From contig AP024096.1 of NCBI GenBank assembly GCA_015099395.1, positions 7,171,485 to 7,235,484 on the forward strand: a DNA stretch of 64,000 nt, written 5' to 3'. Every line of letters begins with the position of its first letter. Position 1 is the stretch's first letter. Shown piece after piece: positions 2,425 to 11,268 of the stretch. The position numbers and the translations under genes were made by a program. The notes beneath the pieces are model-generated. The model saw only the letters and a list, made by a program, of their open reading frames with translations. It searched no databases and was not told the DNA's origin. Origin of the DNA: Ktedonobacteria bacterium brp13. Lineage in GTDB: Bacteria; Chloroflexota; Ktedonobacteria; Ktedonobacterales; Ktedonobacteraceae.

Positions 2425-2464
2425 TCCTCTCGTGGTTCCCTTAAGCCAGGAAGGTACAGATCAT

Positions 2465-5173
2465 ATGTTATTTTCAGCTCAAGGACGAGTGCGGGGGAGT
2501 GGTAATAAGAGTCGTACTCGTGTTGCTCTTCATAGACAAGATCGTAAAGCTCGTCATTTAAAAGTACTTTTGTGTGGAGTCCTGTTTCTTTTTCTGATTG
2601 TGTTTGCCGAGTTCGCGCCATTTTTCGTTGCGCAAGCGAGCGCACATGAAGGACAGGCTGCAGCGAGCACGCAAGTCTTGAATCATACCCAGGTCTCTTC
2701 GGTCAACTATTCCTGCGATTTTTCGCAGTTCTCGCCAGATGGCAATCCCTTCGCACTCTGCCCAGGCCCCTATCCTACCGGTGGTAACTGTGTGTGGTGG
2801 GCATGGGAGCAGTGGCATCTGCTCGGTTTAAACCTTCCTCTCAACTGGGGTAACGCGGCTGATTGGGCCGTAGACGCCTCTCAGTCGGGCTTTGAGTTGG
2901 GTACTACACCACGGGTTGGTTCTATTGCCGTCTTCCCGATTGGTGATGGCACGTGGGCTGCTGGACCAGCGGGTCATGTGGCCTTTGTCACCGATGTCAG
3001 TGCTGATGGTAATTTATTTAACGTGACCTATCAAAATTTTGGTGATCCAACCTTCATGCATATCGGGACCAATTATAATGTCTCGACCATCAACCAGCCC
3101 TGGTATCAGGATGGTCAATTGAAGTTTATTTATTTCCCGCATGACATCGATCCTCACTTATTTGACCAACTACCCGGTATTGCTAGTGATAACGCTGCTG
3201 CATTGGTTAGCTCGGCGAATCAAGCGTTGACCACACAGAGTGCGACGGGTGCCAATAGTCAACAACAACAAGCAAAAACGTATACCAGCGATCGTATTGC
3301 GCTTGGACTCTCGCCTGCTTCAACGGATCAGGAGTTCAATGCAGATTTTACGGGGACCGGACATAGTGATCTATTGCTTTATAATCGTCAGCAGGGTGAT
3401 ATCCAGATCTTGAAGTTGGATCAACAACCGGTTGAGAGGCATAGGGCCTGGACAACACAAGCAGATGGAACGCTAACAAGTTCATTTTATCCACCACTGG
3501 CTGCATCTTCACCACTGGTCGAGTTAAGTGATAAGCAGACACCGGCAGGAGGTTGGGGATCGAATCTGGATATCCATGTCGGAAACTTCTCCGGCGGCAA
3601 GGCCTCAGAGATCTTGCTGTATGATCGTAGCGCAGGAACGATCCAATTGATCAGTTTAAATCCAGATTACACGATCAATCGTCATGTCACGATCCCTGAT
3701 GTTGGTACGAATTGGGAGATCTCGGTTGGACGTTTCGATGGGACGCGCAGCGGGCTCTTTATGTATAAACGTTTCGCGTTGCCTGACGCATCGACGCCTG
3801 CTCCTACCCCCAATCCTGGCACACTGAACCCTGGTAGCGTAGATAATCAGCCGACTCCTGGCGGACCAGTGACATCGCAGCCTACCACTGTACCAGTGCC
3901 GGTCGTGAAGCCGAAATCACCACAGCCGACACCGACGCCAAAGGTGACGCCAACACCAGTAGTCAAGCCGACATCAACGCCAGTCGTGACGCCGACGCCA
4001 AAGGTGACACCAACGCCAGCCGTGACGCCGACACCAGTAGTGACACCAACCCCGGTGGTTACGCCGACGCCCGTACCCACAATAGCGCCGACGCCAACGC
4101 CAGTGATACCAACTGTCACCGCGACAGTTCCTGCTCCGCCAGCACCGACGCCCGTGTCCACTGTGCCGACCGGGTCTACTCTGACGCCAACACCGAGTGG
4201 AACGGCAACGATCAAAGACTCATACACTGTGAACTCGCATACCGATACCTACACCGCTTTGACCACAATGCTGCCACAGACGAATGCTGTGGTGCTTAAT
4301 CCCAATAGCAATAGTGATCTCAGTGGGAGTACATTGCAGACCTGGGAGAAGCAGGATCGCACTGCCAACATTATGTTGATGGATTTTAACGCGGACTTCA
4401 GCATACGCCAGCAGCAGCAGTACACACTCTGGCATGATAGCTGGGAGGTTTACGTTGGTCATTTTGACTCAACGCAGCAAGACGGCATCTTCCTGTATGA
4501 TCGCGTCGCTGGTGAGGGACGGATCATGGATTTCACCAATCATCTGCTGGTGAACAACTATCAGGAGCTGCATAATCTTAACAGTAACTATGTTATCTAT
4601 AGCGGTGACTTTGCGGATAGTGGACGTTCACAGCTCTTGATGTATGATCCCAACGTCGGCAATATCCAGATCTTGCGCTTTGATAAAAATCTGGCTTTGA
4701 GTGGACAGGTAGAGCAAAGTAACCTTGGCACGCACGAGGTGCTCTATGCCGGACATTTTGGTATGCCAACGCTCAGCATCATGCTTTATGACGCGTCCAG
4801 TGCGCAGAGCACATTTATAGGGTTTGACAATAAGCTGAATATTGCCCACCAGTATCTAGTAAAGACCTGGGATCAGCAGTGGCAGATCTTGATCGGGGAC
4901 TTTGCGAGCCCACAACAGTGTGTAACCACATGTACAACGACTGCATCTGCGAGTGCGGGCTCAGACTCTATTCTTGTGCTGAATCGGAGCAGTGGTCAGC
5001 TTGAACGCTACGTCTTCTCATTTGGTCGTCAGTATTCTGTGTATGACAATCGCATCGAGTCTTTTGCACGCCAGGGTATTCCAGTGCAAGACAGTATGAG
5101 CTCAGTTGACACGACTAGTTATAGCATGGTAGAGAGCCTGAGTACCAGTATCAGGAACGAAGAACTCTATTGA
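2465..5173 (+). CDS. Secreted CHAP-domain peptidoglycan hydrolase with FG-GAP/VCBS-like repeats
   Basis: Predicted exported cell-wall amidase/endopeptidase of 902 residues. The ATG at 2465 is chosen because AGGAAGG lies 10 bases upstream; a GTG at 2432 is in frame but lacks a site. A basic N-terminus and hydrophobic segment (residues about 38-58) form the signal or anchor. The CHAP domain follows at about 80-200, with nucleophile Cys109 in GGNCVWWAWE and His171 in GPAGHVAFV. Then come beta-propeller-type repeats with the recurring pattern VGxF...LYDR...I..., interrupted at about residues 445-580 by a linker of Pro-Thr-Pro repeats, and further repeats to the end. The repeats may bind wall polymers or surfaces (inference). 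It has its own promoter. Confidence 0.8.
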   Translation: MLFSAQGRVRGSGNKSRTRVALHRQDRKARHLKVLLCGVLFLFLIVFAEFAPFFVAQASAHEGQAAASTQVLNHTQVSSVNYSCDFSQFSPDGNPFALCPGPYPTGGNCVWWAWEQWHLLGLNLPLNWGNAADWAVDASQSGFELGTTPRVGSIAVFPIGDGTWAAGPAGHVAFVTDVSADGNLFNVTYQNFGDPTFMHIGTNYNVSTINQPWYQDGQLKFIYFPHDIDPHLFDQLPGIASDNAAALVSSANQALTTQSATGANSQQQQAKTYTSDRIALGLSPASTDQEFNADFTGTGHSDLLLYNRQQGDIQILKLDQQPVERHRAWTTQADGTLTSSFYPPLAASSPLVELSDKQTPAGGWGSNLDIHVGNFSGGKASEILLYDRSAGTIQLISLNPDYTINRHVTIPDVGTNWEISVGRFDGTRSGLFMYKRFALPDASTPAPTPNPGTLNPGSVDNQPTPGGPVTSQPTTVPVPVVKPKSPQPTPTPKVTPTPVVKPTSTPVVTPTPKVTPTPAVTPTPVVTPTPVVTPTPVPTIAPTPTPVIPTVTATVPAPPAPTPVSTVPTGSTLTPTPSGTATIKDSYTVNSHTDTYTALTTMLPQTNAVVLNPNSNSDLSGSTLQTWEKQDRTANIMLMDFNADFSIRQQQQYTLWHDSWEVYVGHFDSTQQDGIFLYDRVAGEGRIMDFTNHLLVNNYQELHNLNSNYVIYSGDFADSGRSQLLMYDPNVGNIQILRFDKNLALSGQVEQSNLGTHEVLYAGHFGMPTLSIMLYDASSAQSTFIGFDNKLNIAHQYLVKTWDQQWQILIGDFASPQQCVTTCTTTASASAGSDSILVLNRSSGQLERYVFSFGRQYSVYDNRIESFARQGIPVQDSMSSVDTTSYSMVESLSTSIRNEELY
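3925..4125 (+). repeat. Degenerate Pro-Thr-Pro/Val coding repeat
   Basis: Low-complexity tandem array of near-identical short units such as GTGACGCCGACACCA inside the CHAP protein gene, encoding a flexible TPTP/VTPTP linker. Such arrays change length easily by slippage. A long minus-strand open frame over it is a by-product of this bias. Confidence 0.8.
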
Positions 5174-5200: not shown

Positions 5201-6937
5201 ATGCAGCATATTTTTTTGACCGGGCTTTCCGGGAGTGGGAAAAGCACTGCTGGCCGCCTATTGGCACAACGCTTAGGTCGACCACTATTCGATATTGACG
5301 TGCTTATCGAGCAACATTACGGAGAGCGTATCCCAACCATCTTTGCGCACCACGGTGAAGAGTACTTTCGTGACCTTGAAAGCCGGATTCTGGAGCGTAC
5401 TATCCAGCAAACAGATTCTGCCATCATCGTCACCGGTGGTGGCATTGTTATACGTTCTGAGAATCGCCAGCTGATGGCTACGCATGGTGTGCGCATCTAT
5501 ATGCAGGTTGACCCGCAGATTTCGCTAGAGCGGCTCCGTGCACAAATTGCAAGTGAAGAGCAGCAGGGCAAGAGGCCTGAACTGCGCCCCATGCTGGCTG
5601 GACCCGATCCGTTGGCGAATTTACTCACGATGCAGGCAACGCGTGAATCCTGGTATCAAGAGGCGGAATACCTGTGCGTAACAAATGGTAGACCGGTTGA
5701 GCATGTAGTCCAGGAGATAATCGACATGATCGAACCAACGCGTAATGAAAACGAGCATGCTGCGTCTCTGATAGGGACGCCAGAACTGTCCGAGCCGAGC
5801 ACCTCCGATCCTGTCATCCCACCCATTATTCGTCATGTGCATATCGGGGATGGCTATGATACGATCGTTGAGTGGGGTGGCCTCAGTCACATTGCTGAGC
5901 ACCTCCAGCGGCTCTCCCTACCACCACGGGTCTTTCTGATCACTGATAGTAATATCCATGATTTTTATGCACCCATGCTGGTAGCGCGCCTGCGGGCTGC
6001 ACAGTTTGAACCCCACGTTTATACTATACCTGCCGGTGAAGCCAGTAAATCCCAGCGTCAGCTTAATGCCATCTATGATTGGCTAGTCGACCAGCATGCT
6101 GAACGCCGTGAAGCGCTCATCGCTCTGGGTGGTGGCGTTGTTGGTGACCTGGTAGGGTTTGCCGCTGCAACCTACCTGCGTGGTGTGCCGCTGATCCAGA
6201 TTCCCACATCGTTATTAGCGCAAGTCGACTCCGCTATTGGGGGCAAGACTGGTATCAATCATGCGAAGGGCAAGAATCTGATCGGCGCTTTTTATCATCC
6301 ACGTCTGGTGCTGGCCGATCCCTTAGTGCTATTGAGCTTACAAACGCGTTCAAGAACGGAGGGATGGGCAGAAATTGTAAAGTATGGTATCATACTCGAC
6401 GCTGAATTGTTTGCCTTATTGGAGGCGCACGCGGAAGCATTGCGAGAGTTCTCTCCCGCTTCAAAGGCGTTGTTCTGCCAGATAATCGCCCGTTGTATCG
6501 ATTTGAAAGTGACTATAATTGAAGAGGATGAACGGGAGCAAGGACGTCGTGCAATTCTCAACTATGGTCACACGGCTGGTCACGCACTGGAGAATGCATC
6601 CGGTTATGGTGAATGGCTGCACGGAGAGGCTGTCTCCCTGGGTATGGTTGTTGCAGCGCGCCTGGCTCAGAAGGCCGGTCTTTATGCGAGCGAGGATGTC
6701 GAGCGGCAGAATAACTTATTGACGGCCCTGGGATTGCCTACAACCTATCATGGGACCGTGAGTGCGCAAGATATCCTGTCGAGGATGCAACTGGATAAAA
6801 AAGTAGTAGGAAAACGAGTGCACTGGATCATGCCTGAGCGGATCGGTCAGGTCAGAAGCATGACCCTGCCTGATGAGCTTGTCACACAGGTTGTGACTGA
6901 GTTCTTTGGCGCAGAGGAGGATCACTCCCATGCATGA
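5201..6937 (+). CDS. aroKB: Bifunctional shikimate kinase / 3-dehydroquinate synthase
   Basis: Fusion of two shikimate-pathway enzymes in one 578-residue chain. Residues 1-175 are a shikimate kinase with P-loop GLSGSGKST, the DID substrate motif (FDIDVLIE) and the GGGIV segment. After a linker of about 30 residues, residues 205-578 are an NAD-dependent, metal-dependent 3-dehydroquinate synthase with [32 protein letters not shown] and the metal-ligand region [11 protein letters not shown]. It carries out steps 2 and 5 of chorismate synthesis, while the next gene (aroQ) does step 3. No Shine-Dalgarno sequence precedes the ATG. The stop overlaps the aroQ start by 8 bp, indicating coupling. Confidence 0.95.
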
Positions 6938-8542: not shown

Positions 8543-9100
8543 ATGGTTTCTACTGGTGATCTGAAAAAAGGTTTGACAATTGAGTTTGAGGGACAGCTCT
8601 GTACTATCCTCGACTGGCAGCATATCAAGATTGGTCGCGGTGGTGCGATTGTACGTCTGAAAGTACGTAACCTGCGCACCGGCGCAATCTTTGAGCGCAC
8701 CTGTGACGCAGGTGATAAGTTCAAGCGTATCTACCTGGATCGTGCGACTGTAAACTATCAATACGAAGCCGACGATCAGTATCATTTCATGGATACAAGC
8801 ACCTATGATGATATCGTTTTGTCTGTTGCGCAGTTGGGGGATGCAAAGAACTATCTGATCGATAACCTGGAACTGGATATCATCAGCTATGAAGGTGAGC
8901 CTCTCTCTGTCGACCTGCCTGAGAAACTTGTTTTGCGTGTAACCTATACCGAGCCCGGTTATAAAGGTGATACTGCCACTGGTGGCAACAAACCAGCTAC
9001 CACCGAAACCGGCCTGGTCGTACAGGTACCGCTCTTTATTAGCATCGATGATATGATTCGTGTCAACACCACGACCGGCTCATACGTCGAGCGTGCATAA
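8543..9100 (+). CDS. efp: Translation elongation factor P, arginine-tip type
   Basis: Rescues ribosomes stalled on polyproline. It has 185 residues with the three-domain EF-P layout; the C-terminal signature is DTATGGNKPATTETG. The loop that reaches the peptidyl-transferase centre reads IKIGRGGA, so the tip residue is Arg32, not the lysine modified by EpmA or YmfI-type systems. Thermus EF-P has the same kind of tip, and in Pseudomonas Arg32 is rhamnosylated by EarP. No modification enzyme is encoded in this window. GGAGAAAG lies upstream of the ATG. Confidence 0.96.
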   Translation: MVSTGDLKKGLTIEFEGQLCTILDWQHIKIGRGGAIVRLKVRNLRTGAIFERTCDAGDKFKRIYLDRATVNYQYEADDQYHFMDTSTYDDIVLSVAQLGDAKNYLIDNLELDIISYEGEPLSVDLPEKLVLRVTYTEPGYKGDTATGGNKPATTETGLVVQVPLFISIDDMIRVNTTTGSYVERA

Positions 9101-9240
9101 TTGTTCAGTATACCAGGAACCTGTAGTTTGCAAGATAGTTTGCGGTGGTTCTTGCAGAGATAGCTCTCTGGTGCTCTCTGTCAACGTATGGTGGGAGTAT
9201 CAGACTAGCTATCTCTCTATTGAATGGGAGGTGTGTGTAC

Positions 9241-9783
9241 ATGAAAAGAAACGGACAATATCCCCATAGTTCTAATGCGAACGGTAAAGTGAGTATTGAT
9301 GAGGAGAACAAGACCGTGGAGCGTGTAAGCATTGAGCAATTGCGCCGCCTGGTCCGTATGCTTGATGAGAGTGATGTATCAGAGATCAGCGTCGAGCGTG
9401 CGGACGAGGGGATGCGCCTGGTGATGCGCAAAGCGCAAGCGCAAGATGGTGGCATCCAGGGAACCGCTGCCTATCAATGGGCCGAAGGCTCGGAAGAAGA
9501 GCTATCGTCGAGCGAGATTGAGGCTGGCGAGACCCGGCATACAATTACCGCCTCGCTGGTTGGTATATTTCATAGCTGGGCAAAGCCTAAAGGCAAATCC
9601 CTGGTAGCCGTTGGTGATCTTGTGAAGATTGGCCAGCGCGTCGGTACGTTGCAATCTTTGAACGTTATGAATGAGATCGAAACAACTATTGCCGGTCGTA
9701 TCGTCGAAATTCTGGTGGAAGAGGGTCAGGCCGTTGAATATGGGCAGCAATTGATGGTCATCGACAGCTCAGAGGAGGCGTAG
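9241..9783 (+). CDS. BCCP-like protein (AccB family) lacking the biotinyl lysine
   Basis: Homologue of the biotin carboxyl carrier protein of acetyl-CoA carboxylase, 180 residues. The ATG at 9241 has GGGAGG 9 bases upstream. The N-terminal helix region reads IEQLRRLVRMLDESDVSEI, as in true AccB. The C-terminal biotinyl/lipoyl hammerhead domain (about 105-180) has the usual fold pattern, with VGDLVKIGQRVG, GRIVEILVEEGQ and VEYGQQLMVID. The hairpin turn that normally reads EAMKMMNEI reads QSLNVMNEI, so Asn141 (codon AAC at 9661) occupies the biotinylation site. It lies in the accB position of a conserved operon but accC is absent. It cannot be a biotin carrier as read; a structural or regulatory role is inference. 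Confidence 0.85.
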   Translation: MKRNGQYPHSSNANGKVSIDEENKTVERVSIEQLRRLVRMLDESDVSEISVERADEGMRLVMRKAQAQDGGIQGTAAYQWAEGSEEELSSSEIEAGETRHTITASLVGIFHSWAKPKGKSLVAVGDLVKIGQRVGTLQSLNVMNEIETTIAGRIVEILVEEGQAVEYGQQLMVIDSSEEA

Positions 9784-9788
9784 ACCGC

Positions 9789-11018
9789 ATGTATTCGCTG
9801 GACTCGCAAGGCACACAAGGCACTCCCACCGCAATCAGCGTCTCAGCTCTCTCTTTGTATCTCAAAGAGCTGCTGGAGGCCAATGATATCTTACAGAATA
9901 TCTGGATACATGGTGAGGTCTCGAACTGCAAAACCTATCCATCGGGCCATTGTTATTTTACCCTGAAGGAGGGCGAGGCACAGATCATGTGCGTGTTCTT
10001 TAAGCATGCACGCTTGCGCACTTCTGCTCCGACTTTGCGAGATGGTATGGCGCTTGCAGTAAATGGTCGTATCTCGTTTTATGAGCGCGATGGGAAGCTT
10101 CAATGTTATGTGGATGCGGTCCTGCCCCTGGGCGAAGGTGCGTTGTTCCAGCGGTTTGAGCAGTTAAAGCATCAACTTGCGGCTGAAGGTCTTTTTGCTG
10201 AAGAGCGTAAGCGGCCATTGCCAGCACAACCAGAGGTTATCGGTATTGTCACCTCATTACAAGCTGCGGCGCTCCGTGATATGTTGCGTGTCTTACGCAA
10301 CCGCTATCCATTGGTGCGCGTTATACTCTCGCCTGCGTTGGTCCAGGGTGCTGATGCCCCGGCTTCGATTGCCGCGGCTCTGGATCTCTTAAACGAGCAT
10401 GGAGAGGCTGATGTCATCATTGTTGGTCGTGGTGGTGGCTCAATAGAGGAGCTGTGGGCTTTTAATGAAGAGAGTGTAGCGCGTGCCATCGCTCGTTCGC
10501 GGATCCCCGTGATCAGTGGTGTTGGACATGAAACCGATTTTACCATTGCAGACTTCGTCGCTGATCACCGTGCCTCGACACCAACTGCCGCCGCCACTGC
10601 TGCTGTACCCGATATCGCAGAATGGCGTGAAGACCTTCTCTACAGACAACAGTTATTGACAGACCTGATCCAGGCGTATATTGTTAATGCCAGCGAACAG
10701 GTAGAGGACGCTGTACAGGATCTTCGGCGTGTAAGTCCACTCAGCATGATAGCGCAACGTCGTCAGCAGCTGGACGAATACACGGATCGTATGCAGGTTA
10801 GCATGCAGCACACACTTTCACTACAGACTGAACGCCTGCGTAGCCTGGCATTGCAACTGCATTCATTGAGTCCTCTGCTGACAATCGCTCGTGGCTATGC
10901 CGTTGTGCGCCGCGATAGCGATCAGGCCGTGGTCTCCAGTGTGCAACAGGTCAGCCCTGGCGAGGCCTTAACTGTGCAGGTACAGGACGGAGATATCCTG
11001 GTAAACGTACGTTCTTAA
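9789..11018 (+). CDS. xseA: Exodeoxyribonuclease VII large subunit
   Basis: Catalytic subunit of the ssDNA exonuclease ExoVII. It has 409 residues: an N-terminal OB-fold (about 13-115; VSNCKTYPSGHCYFTLKE), a catalytic core with the family signature VGRGGGSIEELWAFNEE and SGVGHETDFTIADFVADHRA, then a helical region and a C-terminal beta tail (LTVQVQDGDILVNV). GAGGAGG lies upstream of the ATG, only 5 bp after the BCCP-like gene stop. The partner xseB follows. Confidence 0.97.
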   Translation: MYSLDSQGTQGTPTAISVSALSLYLKELLEANDILQNIWIHGEVSNCKTYPSGHCYFTLKEGEAQIMCVFFKHARLRTSAPTLRDGMALAVNGRISFYERDGKLQCYVDAVLPLGEGALFQRFEQLKHQLAAEGLFAEERKRPLPAQPEVIGIVTSLQAAALRDMLRVLRNRYPLVRVILSPALVQGADAPASIAAALDLLNEHGEADVIIVGRGGGSIEELWAFNEESVARAIARSRIPVISGVGHETDFTIADFVADHRASTPTAAATAAVPDIAEWREDLLYRQQLLTDLIQAYIVNASEQVEDAVQDLRRVSPLSMIAQRRQQLDEYTDRMQVSMQHTLSLQTERLRSLALQLHSLSPLLTIARGYAVVRRDSDQAVVSSVQQVSPGEALTVQVQDGDILVNVRS

Positions 11019-11043
11019 TACACATGCTGTGGGAAGAAGAGAA

Positions 11044-11268
11044 ATGGACGAATTAAGCTTTGAAGAAGCCTTTGAGCAGCTTGAAAAGACGATTGCTGCA
11101 TTAAAAGATGGAAAGATGCCGCTGGATCAGGCGCTACAGCAATATCAAGGTGGTATGCAGCTTGCTCAGTATTGCAACCAACTGTTGCAGAAGGCAGAAT
11201 TGACCGTACAGCAGCTCAGCAGCTCGGAGAGTGAAGATGAACTCACTATTTCGCCTCTTGATATGTAG
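11044..11268 (+). CDS. xseB: Exodeoxyribonuclease VII small subunit
   Basis: Helical partner of XseA, 74 residues, the usual length. It contains LSFEEAFEQLEKTIAALKDG and MPLDQALQQYQGGMQL, the two-helix hallmark. The ATG at 11044 is preferred over a GTG at 11029, because a purine-rich GGGAAGAAGAG stretch sits just before it. It follows xseA by 25 bp. Confidence 0.95.
   Translation: MDELSFEEAFEQLEKTIAALKDGKMPLDQALQQYQGGMQLAQYCNQLLQKAELTVQQLSSSESEDELTISPLDM

Follow-up and report, generated by a model that had tools for sequence, protein, structure and literature searches.

Acetyl-CoA carboxylase (ACC) is the gateway to fatty-acid synthesis, of which it catalyzes the committed step. In bacteria it is commonly presented as an enzyme of four subunit types. 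The AccB protein of Escherichia coli is said to autoregulate the acc genes. To our knowledge, the known BCCP-like dummy subunits are the BADC proteins of plants, and the AccE-type subunits are not homologues of AccB.

According to passages of a 2025 paper, BADC, which is without the AMKL motif, acts as an assembly 'glue' of BC and BCCP and is unique to the plant enzyme; the same passages mention bacterial non-catalytic 'glue' subunits, which are left unnamed there (PMC11926652). Part of a review records disagreement on whether the BADCs inhibit or assemble ACC (PMC7212373). For the fused BC-BCCP protein of Chloroflexus aurantiacus (BC1), a section of the relevant paper describes a BC tetramer held together by the hairpin of BCCP and not by the core that bears the biotin (PMC11077971). 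The accE product of the actinobacterial acyl-CoA carboxylases is named, in one passage, as a supplementary subunit that takes part in subunit interaction (PMC3199775).

The gene studied here, designated accN in this work, lies in a window (the whole stretch of DNA analyzed, 64,000 nucleotides) of an 8.88 Mb genome in a single contig, and encodes an AccB homologue without the biotinyl lysine. Like plant BADC of the plastid heteromeric ACC, it is a selected, non-catalytic BCCP homologue that lacks the biotinylation motif and exists beside a BCCP predicted to be biotinylatable; unlike BADC, it is bacterial, is located in an efp-xseA operon or beside acc and fab genes, and is predicted rather than known to bind AccC and AccB. 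The likeness to BADC is drawn by analogy, and the origin was probably independent. With the AccB of E. coli (4hr7) the protein shares homology from the N-terminal region to the hammerhead core and a C-terminus of the VEYGQ/VEF type, but the biotinyl lysine is missing and the turn is relaxed. BC1 belongs to the same phylum and, in the section cited above, does not need its core for the hairpin to form the BC tetramer, which makes it a model for the usefulness of a Lys-less AccB (PMC11077971); in contrast to accN, BC1 is a Lys-bearing fusion and not a stand-alone subunit. AccE would resemble the accN product in being a supplementary subunit, as far as the cited passage goes (PMC3199775).

We consider it fairly probable that accN encodes a conserved, non-biotinylated subunit of ACC, with a role in assembly or in the number of biotin arms like that of plant BADC; the binding and the mechanism are what we infer. 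The presence of a second, Lys-less AccB suggests an extra structural or regulatory subunit, as in plants. A Lys-less AccB subunit in bacteria came up in none of the matches listed from the open-licence literature, which mostly leaves out subscription papers.

The window gene and its operon

The features of the gene and its slot markers are summarized in Table 1.

Table 1. Features of accN and of the neighboring slot markers (positions in the window).
Feature	Position	Strand	Basis or remark
efp, elongation factor P, upstream slot marker	8543..9100	+	TIGR00038, 229.7 bits
Putative Shine-Dalgarno-like GGGAGGTG	9226..9233	+	7 bases before the ATG; read from the sequence
accN, Lys-less AccB homologue	9241..9783	+	intact ORF, 180 aa plus stop, ATG start
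N-terminal helix and beta-hairpin region, residues 29-65	9325..9435	+	predicted secondary structure; the part of AccB-type proteins that is associated with oligomerization of biotin carboxylase
Biotinyl (hammerhead) core domain without lysine, residues 100-176	9538..9768	+	PF00364; alignment of profile A3
Biotinylation turn QSLNVMNEI, residues 138-146	9652..9678	+	translated sequence
Asn141 codon AAC, position of the biotinyl Lys	9661..9663	+	read from the sequence
VEYGQ motif, residues 165-169	9733..9747	+	most conserved among six stretches scored in the Lys-less proteins
xseA, exodeoxyribonuclease VII large subunit, downstream slot marker	9789..11018	+	TIGR00237, 475 bits
xseB, exodeoxyribonuclease VII small subunit	11029..11268	+	TIGR01280, 66.9 bits

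The original prediction, an AccB homologue at 9241..9783 with Asn at the place of the biotinyl lysine and AAC at 9661, was correct on all these points. The turn reads Q138-S-L-N141-V-M-N-E-I146, and the biotinyl lysine of the E-x-M-K-M motif is absent. The product of accN is not a catalytic AccB, since the defining lysine is absent; at the level of sequence, the loss means that the protein cannot carry carboxybiotin. It scored 40.5 bits against PF00364 (Biotin_lipoyl; cut-off 22.1) over residues 118-174. The score against TIGR00531 (BCCP), 91.6 bits, is below the cut-off of 115.2, a shortfall that is uninformative because a Lys-bearing AccB of the same genome reaches just 94.4 bits and is likewise under 115.2. 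Profile A3, in which Lys-bearing and Lys-less rows are mixed, aligns with the E. coli AccB of 4hr7 from chain residue 23 to 176. E48 and R63 are invariant across 29 Lys-less rows, and the loop at the thumb position is equal in length to that of relatives with a Lys-bearing AccB in the same slot.

The gene was said to occupy the accB slot of an aroQ-peptidase-efp-accB-xseA-xseB operon, and the families named by profile scores agree with this. Besides efp, xseA and xseB, the neighbors are a shikimate kinase/3-dehydroquinate synthase fusion, a type II dehydroquinase, an M24 peptidase and a DUF212 protein. The fusion is encoded by a single ORF of 578 aa at 5201-6937 of the window. At 2432-5173 lies a gene for a CHAP-domain protein of 913 aa with a long Pro/Thr-rich stretch.

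The absence of accC after the gene had been pointed out; it says nothing of activity, because relatives that keep the lysine in the slot, among them Chloroflexus and a genome of the Herpetosiphonaceae, also have accB followed by xseA with no accC; a missing accC was thus rejected as evidence of inactivity. In Chloroflexus islandicus the gene before xseA-xseB carries EAMKMMNEI, exactly the turn that had been expected at this place. Six loci outside the phylum (L166, L175, L178, L185, L204, L222) have the order efp-accB-accC, so that the efp neighborhood of accB looks old. The window's lineage has the gene in the company of efp and xseA rather than of acc genes. The slot address alone is no proof that a link to ACC persists, because the same slot elsewhere holds a Lys-bearing AccB.

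In many families the gene is linked to efp, a gene of translation, and to xseA, a gene of DNA repair. This linkage would also fit a moonlighting protein that senses the state of AccB or BirA and autoregulates the acc genes at the transcriptional or translational level, for which a biotin-free AccB could serve as a decoy. We regard this as improbable: searches of Pfam and NCBIfam recognized no DNA-binding domain and no further domain of any kind in accN, and the accB-xseA linkage is not tied to the loss of the lysine, as it is also found where AccB is Lys-bearing.

Distribution and descent

All 47 genomes of the window's class match the window protein at E <= 0.001. The original prediction had proposed an alignment of Ktedonobacteria orthologues, and a Lys-less gene could be read through the turn in 44 of the 47, with 46 proteins (40 Asn, 5 Arg, 1 His). 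In none of the 44 was Lys, or the EAMKM turn of a conventional AccB, found in the efp slot. No such slot gene was found in two class genomes (G004 and G029), and the copy of a third (G045) is broken before the turn. Given a Lys-less copy in 44 of the 47 genomes and no case of Lys read in the slot, chance, sequencing error and loss in a single strain were rejected. Much of the class has the order aroB-aroQ-peptidase-efp-[Lys-less]-xseA-xseB-DUF212, but some loci depart from it: for five genomes of family f3, no slot marker and no acc gene could be recognized next to the Lys-less gene. Genome G027 also has accC-[Lys-less]-accB(Lys). In the class genomes where it was fetched, a Lys-bearing AccB stands with fabF at most loci, often also with accC.

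In the phylum Chloroflexota, 251 genomes were searched with the profiles; 139 matched at E <= 1e-12 and 112 had no match at that threshold. Fourteen of the 112 (G061 included) were searched again, which yielded a Lys-less and a Lys-bearing gene in one (G054) and weak matches or none in the others. The AccB loci of 107 genomes, picked to cover families and not drawn at random, were fetched and read; a protein that stayed below 60 bits with each of the two profiles did not enter the counts. On this basis a Lys-less AccB is present in 85 of the 107 genomes and 23 of the 34 families, with 87 proteins. Their genes lie by efp, xseA, xseB or the peptidase gene (67), beside acc genes (14) or with none of these recognized (6).

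The residue at the lysine position is N in 44 of the 87 proteins, G in 25, R in 8, Q in 6, D in 3 and H in 1. Within lineages the turn is fairly conserved (QSLNV, EALNV). The turn may therefore have a function of its own that the subunit reading does not account for. A different group or ligand bound at the Asn, Gly, Arg or Gln turn, or service to a carboxylase or other enzyme than ACC, would account for such conservation; we hold this to be very improbable, because the residue differs between lineages, at odds with a single chemistry of attachment for all of them, and because the metabolic neighbors, where present, are genes of ACC and of fatty-acid synthesis.

A second, lysine-containing accB had been sought in the same genome, and was found elsewhere, beside fabF. 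Counting as fabF-type those Lys-bearing AccB that lie beside fabF or have F or Y two places after the Lys, such a protein was also read in 81 of the 85 genomes with a Lys-less gene. The four without a counted one are three incomplete or fragmented assemblies (G017, G019, G099) and G217, in which a short, fabF-linked gene with EAMKVFNEI fell under the score cut (L336). Naming an 'AccB' by position and fold alone would pick the wrong biotin carrier in many Chloroflexota genomes.

A lysine in the slot was read in 13 of the 107 genomes, from 9 families, Chloroflexus among them. All 13 were searched with the fabF-type profile and none showed a fabF-type AccB, a count that leaves out weaker second fabF-type matches of 45-69 bits in four of them (G106, G155, G190, G197). 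The slot-Lys form and a Lys-less AccB were found together in none of the 107 genomes read. Nine genomes have neither form; in three of these (G140, G202, G236) the fabF-type locus alone was fetched. Two of the 13, G155 (L237) and G197 (L235), have an additional AccB-like gene that keeps the Lys, in the odd turn EVMKLMHSV, at a distance of about 18 kb from the accB of the efp slot.

The phylogeny was built from 133 rows out of 220 proteins, none of plant origin, after thinning at 60% identity and exclusion of rows shorter than 110 aa. The nine turn columns were removed, 159 columns out of 437 were used, and the tree is unrooted. The 63 Lys-less rows form one side of a single branch with a support of 95/79 (SH-aLRT 79), just short of a star, and the grouping recurs in 92% of 200 bootstrap trees. 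The 37 fabF-type Lys rows are a clade (98/92), and the Lys-less AccB rows from the additional ACC sets of the window genome and of G027 are sisters (99/97). The Lys-less rows require one change of state on the tree, and multiple independent losses are not favored. A single loss of the lysine is thus the best reading, and not proof, because the support is just under the star, the tree has no root and several of its terminal branches are long.

Outside Chloroflexota, the best AccB match had Lys in 30 of 30 named genomes; these hold 18 further, weaker matches (42-82 bits), one of which was read. Phylum samples of 101, 79, 80 and 100 genomes (360 in all) were reached from one Thermincola, one cyanobacterial, one acidobacterial and one betaproteobacterial record. 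Of these, 296 matched at E <= 1e-15, a threshold under which a strongly drifted Lys-less gene could fall, and seven had two or more matches. Sixteen matches were fetched, 15 from genomes with multiple matches plus the second match in G279, and had Lys in 15 cases and Ser in one; together with a few single-match genomes that belong to the 30 above, they make up the turns read in the samples. A restriction of Lys-less AccB to Chloroflexota is suggested by these counts and not shown, because most turns of single-match genomes were unread and drifted genes could escape the threshold. The protein with Ser at the biotinyl position (L386, G626:C114:14199-15045; turn DVLSKLMPV) is encoded about 5 kb from a Lys-bearing one in the betaproteobacterial sample and, by its sequence, is a possible separate case of a Lys-less AccB.

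Selection and conservation

Values of dN/dS were calculated with our own Nei-Gojobori script. For the Lys-less gene, omega ranged over 0.054-0.236 among 19 close pairs, which come from three class genera; for the Lys gene it was 0.063-0.212 in 16 pairs from two genera; pairs within a genus are not independent of each other and none is from the genus of the window. Within these three genera, and with the same reservation on independence, the values disfavor a pseudogene.

Conservation was expressed as bits per column in 72 thinned Lys-less rows against three Lys groups of 14, 34 and 15 rows, which differ from each other and from the Lys-less set in size and depth. The turn has 2.64 bits in the Lys-less rows versus 3.88-3.99 in the Lys groups, the first half of the core 2.18 versus 2.81-3.31, the N-terminal helix 1.88 versus 2.11-2.69, the hairpin 2.16 versus 2.39-2.71 and the C-terminal half 2.56 versus 2.41-3.32. 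For VEYGQ the value is 4.08, versus 4.32, 2.68 and 4.32 in the three Lys groups. The Lys-less proteins are looser overall, most of all in the turn, and VEYGQ is almost fixed. The fold had been described as retained with loss of the active turn only. The loss of the lysine stands, but the change is not confined to a single residue or to the turn, as the N-terminal region and the first half of the core are also looser. Retention of the binding surfaces is not clear-cut either, because the N-terminal region and the core of the Lys-less proteins are less conserved than in the Lys rows.

Such loosening of the turn and, to a lesser degree, of the core relative to the Lys rows is what would be seen in a relic, an old efp-slot AccB in slow decay after the fabF-linked AccB took over. 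The broken copy in G045 points the same way, and a replacement would also explain why none of the 13 genomes with Lys in the slot showed the fabF type. We nevertheless judge this history highly improbable: the pairs compared show purifying selection as strong as on the Lys gene, with omega below 0.24, not near 1, in 19 of 19, and Lys-less copies are kept in 23 families and also alongside a second ACC set.

Association with acetyl-CoA carboxylase genes and proposed role

The window genome has 13 places that match PF00364. Four of these are AccB-type at E <= 1e-12 (the other nine were left out), two of them Lys-less and two Lys-bearing. One Lys-bearing AccB, with the turn EAMKVFNEI, adjoins fabF. 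The other belongs to a second complete ACC set at 8.18 Mb (L075, G000:C1:8180469-8190918) with the order fabD-accD-accA-accC-[Lys-less]-accB(Lys), where the Lys-less copy (QSLNILNEV) lies directly between accC and the Lys-bearing accB (EAMKVFNEI).

Twelve genomes from five families (f12, f22, f32, f34, f46) have the Lys-less gene beside accA, accD or accC. At one such locus (L315) the order, from NCBIfam assignments, is accD-accA-[Lys-less]-fabD-accC-fabZ-fabF-accB(Lys)-fabH, and the Lys-less frame (2501-2962) shares 4 bases with accA at its end and 4 with fabD at its start. Together with the second set of the window genome and the arrangement in G027, the acc-adjacent loci are contextual evidence that links the Lys-less protein with ACC. 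The selected non-catalytic role that the original prediction had argued for is supported by this placement beside acc genes, by purifying selection and by the lack of EAMKM in the slot of the class genomes read.

In the mechanism that we propose, accN would be transcribed from the efp operon, or in other lineages beside acc and fab genes, and its product would escape biotinylation by BirA. The N-terminal helix-hairpin and the hammerhead core, through which proteins of the AccB type bind biotin carboxylase (BC, AccC) and one another, appear from the sequence to be kept and would allow binding to AccC and AccB, so that the Lys-less chain may bind AccC dimers, the Lys-bearing AccB, or both. Most likely it would stand in for part of the AccB chains of the AccC-AccB complex, where it could supply hairpins without biotin arms and thereby may promote formation of the AccC oligomer and of the holoenzyme. 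The fabF-side, Lys-bearing AccB would perform carboxyl transfer in the same cells, and the Lys-less chain would build or hold the complex and set the number of biotin arms, as reported for plant BADC.

The same anatomy and the same partners would suit a negative regulator that competes with biotinylated AccB for AccC (or BirA) and throttles malonyl-CoA, its dose being set through the efp or fab operon. Plant BADCs are reported, in the portions of the two papers that bear on this, both as inhibitors that displace BCCP and as activators of assembly (PMC7212373, PMC11926652). We think a regulator unlikely, since adjacency to acc genes in 12 genomes and the 4-base overlaps in L315 are expected more of a stoichiometric subunit and the protein has no further domain recognized by Pfam or NCBIfam. 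Assembly is favored over inhibition because the gene stands among the other subunit genes in five families, although the data are not decisive. A bacterial counterpart that is encoded beside all of its partners would offer a compact reconstitution system for the question whether a Lys-less BCCP is a glue or a brake.

A broader form of the subunit reading, to which we give an even chance, is that ACC in the 23 of 34 families has five subunits, with a stoichiometric Lys-less AccB that arose by an old duplication, lost its lysine once and is an independent counterpart of BADC.

Directly after the second ACC set of the window genome lies a phosphoketolase gene, which could, as a guess, link the supply of acetyl-phosphate to malonyl-CoA.
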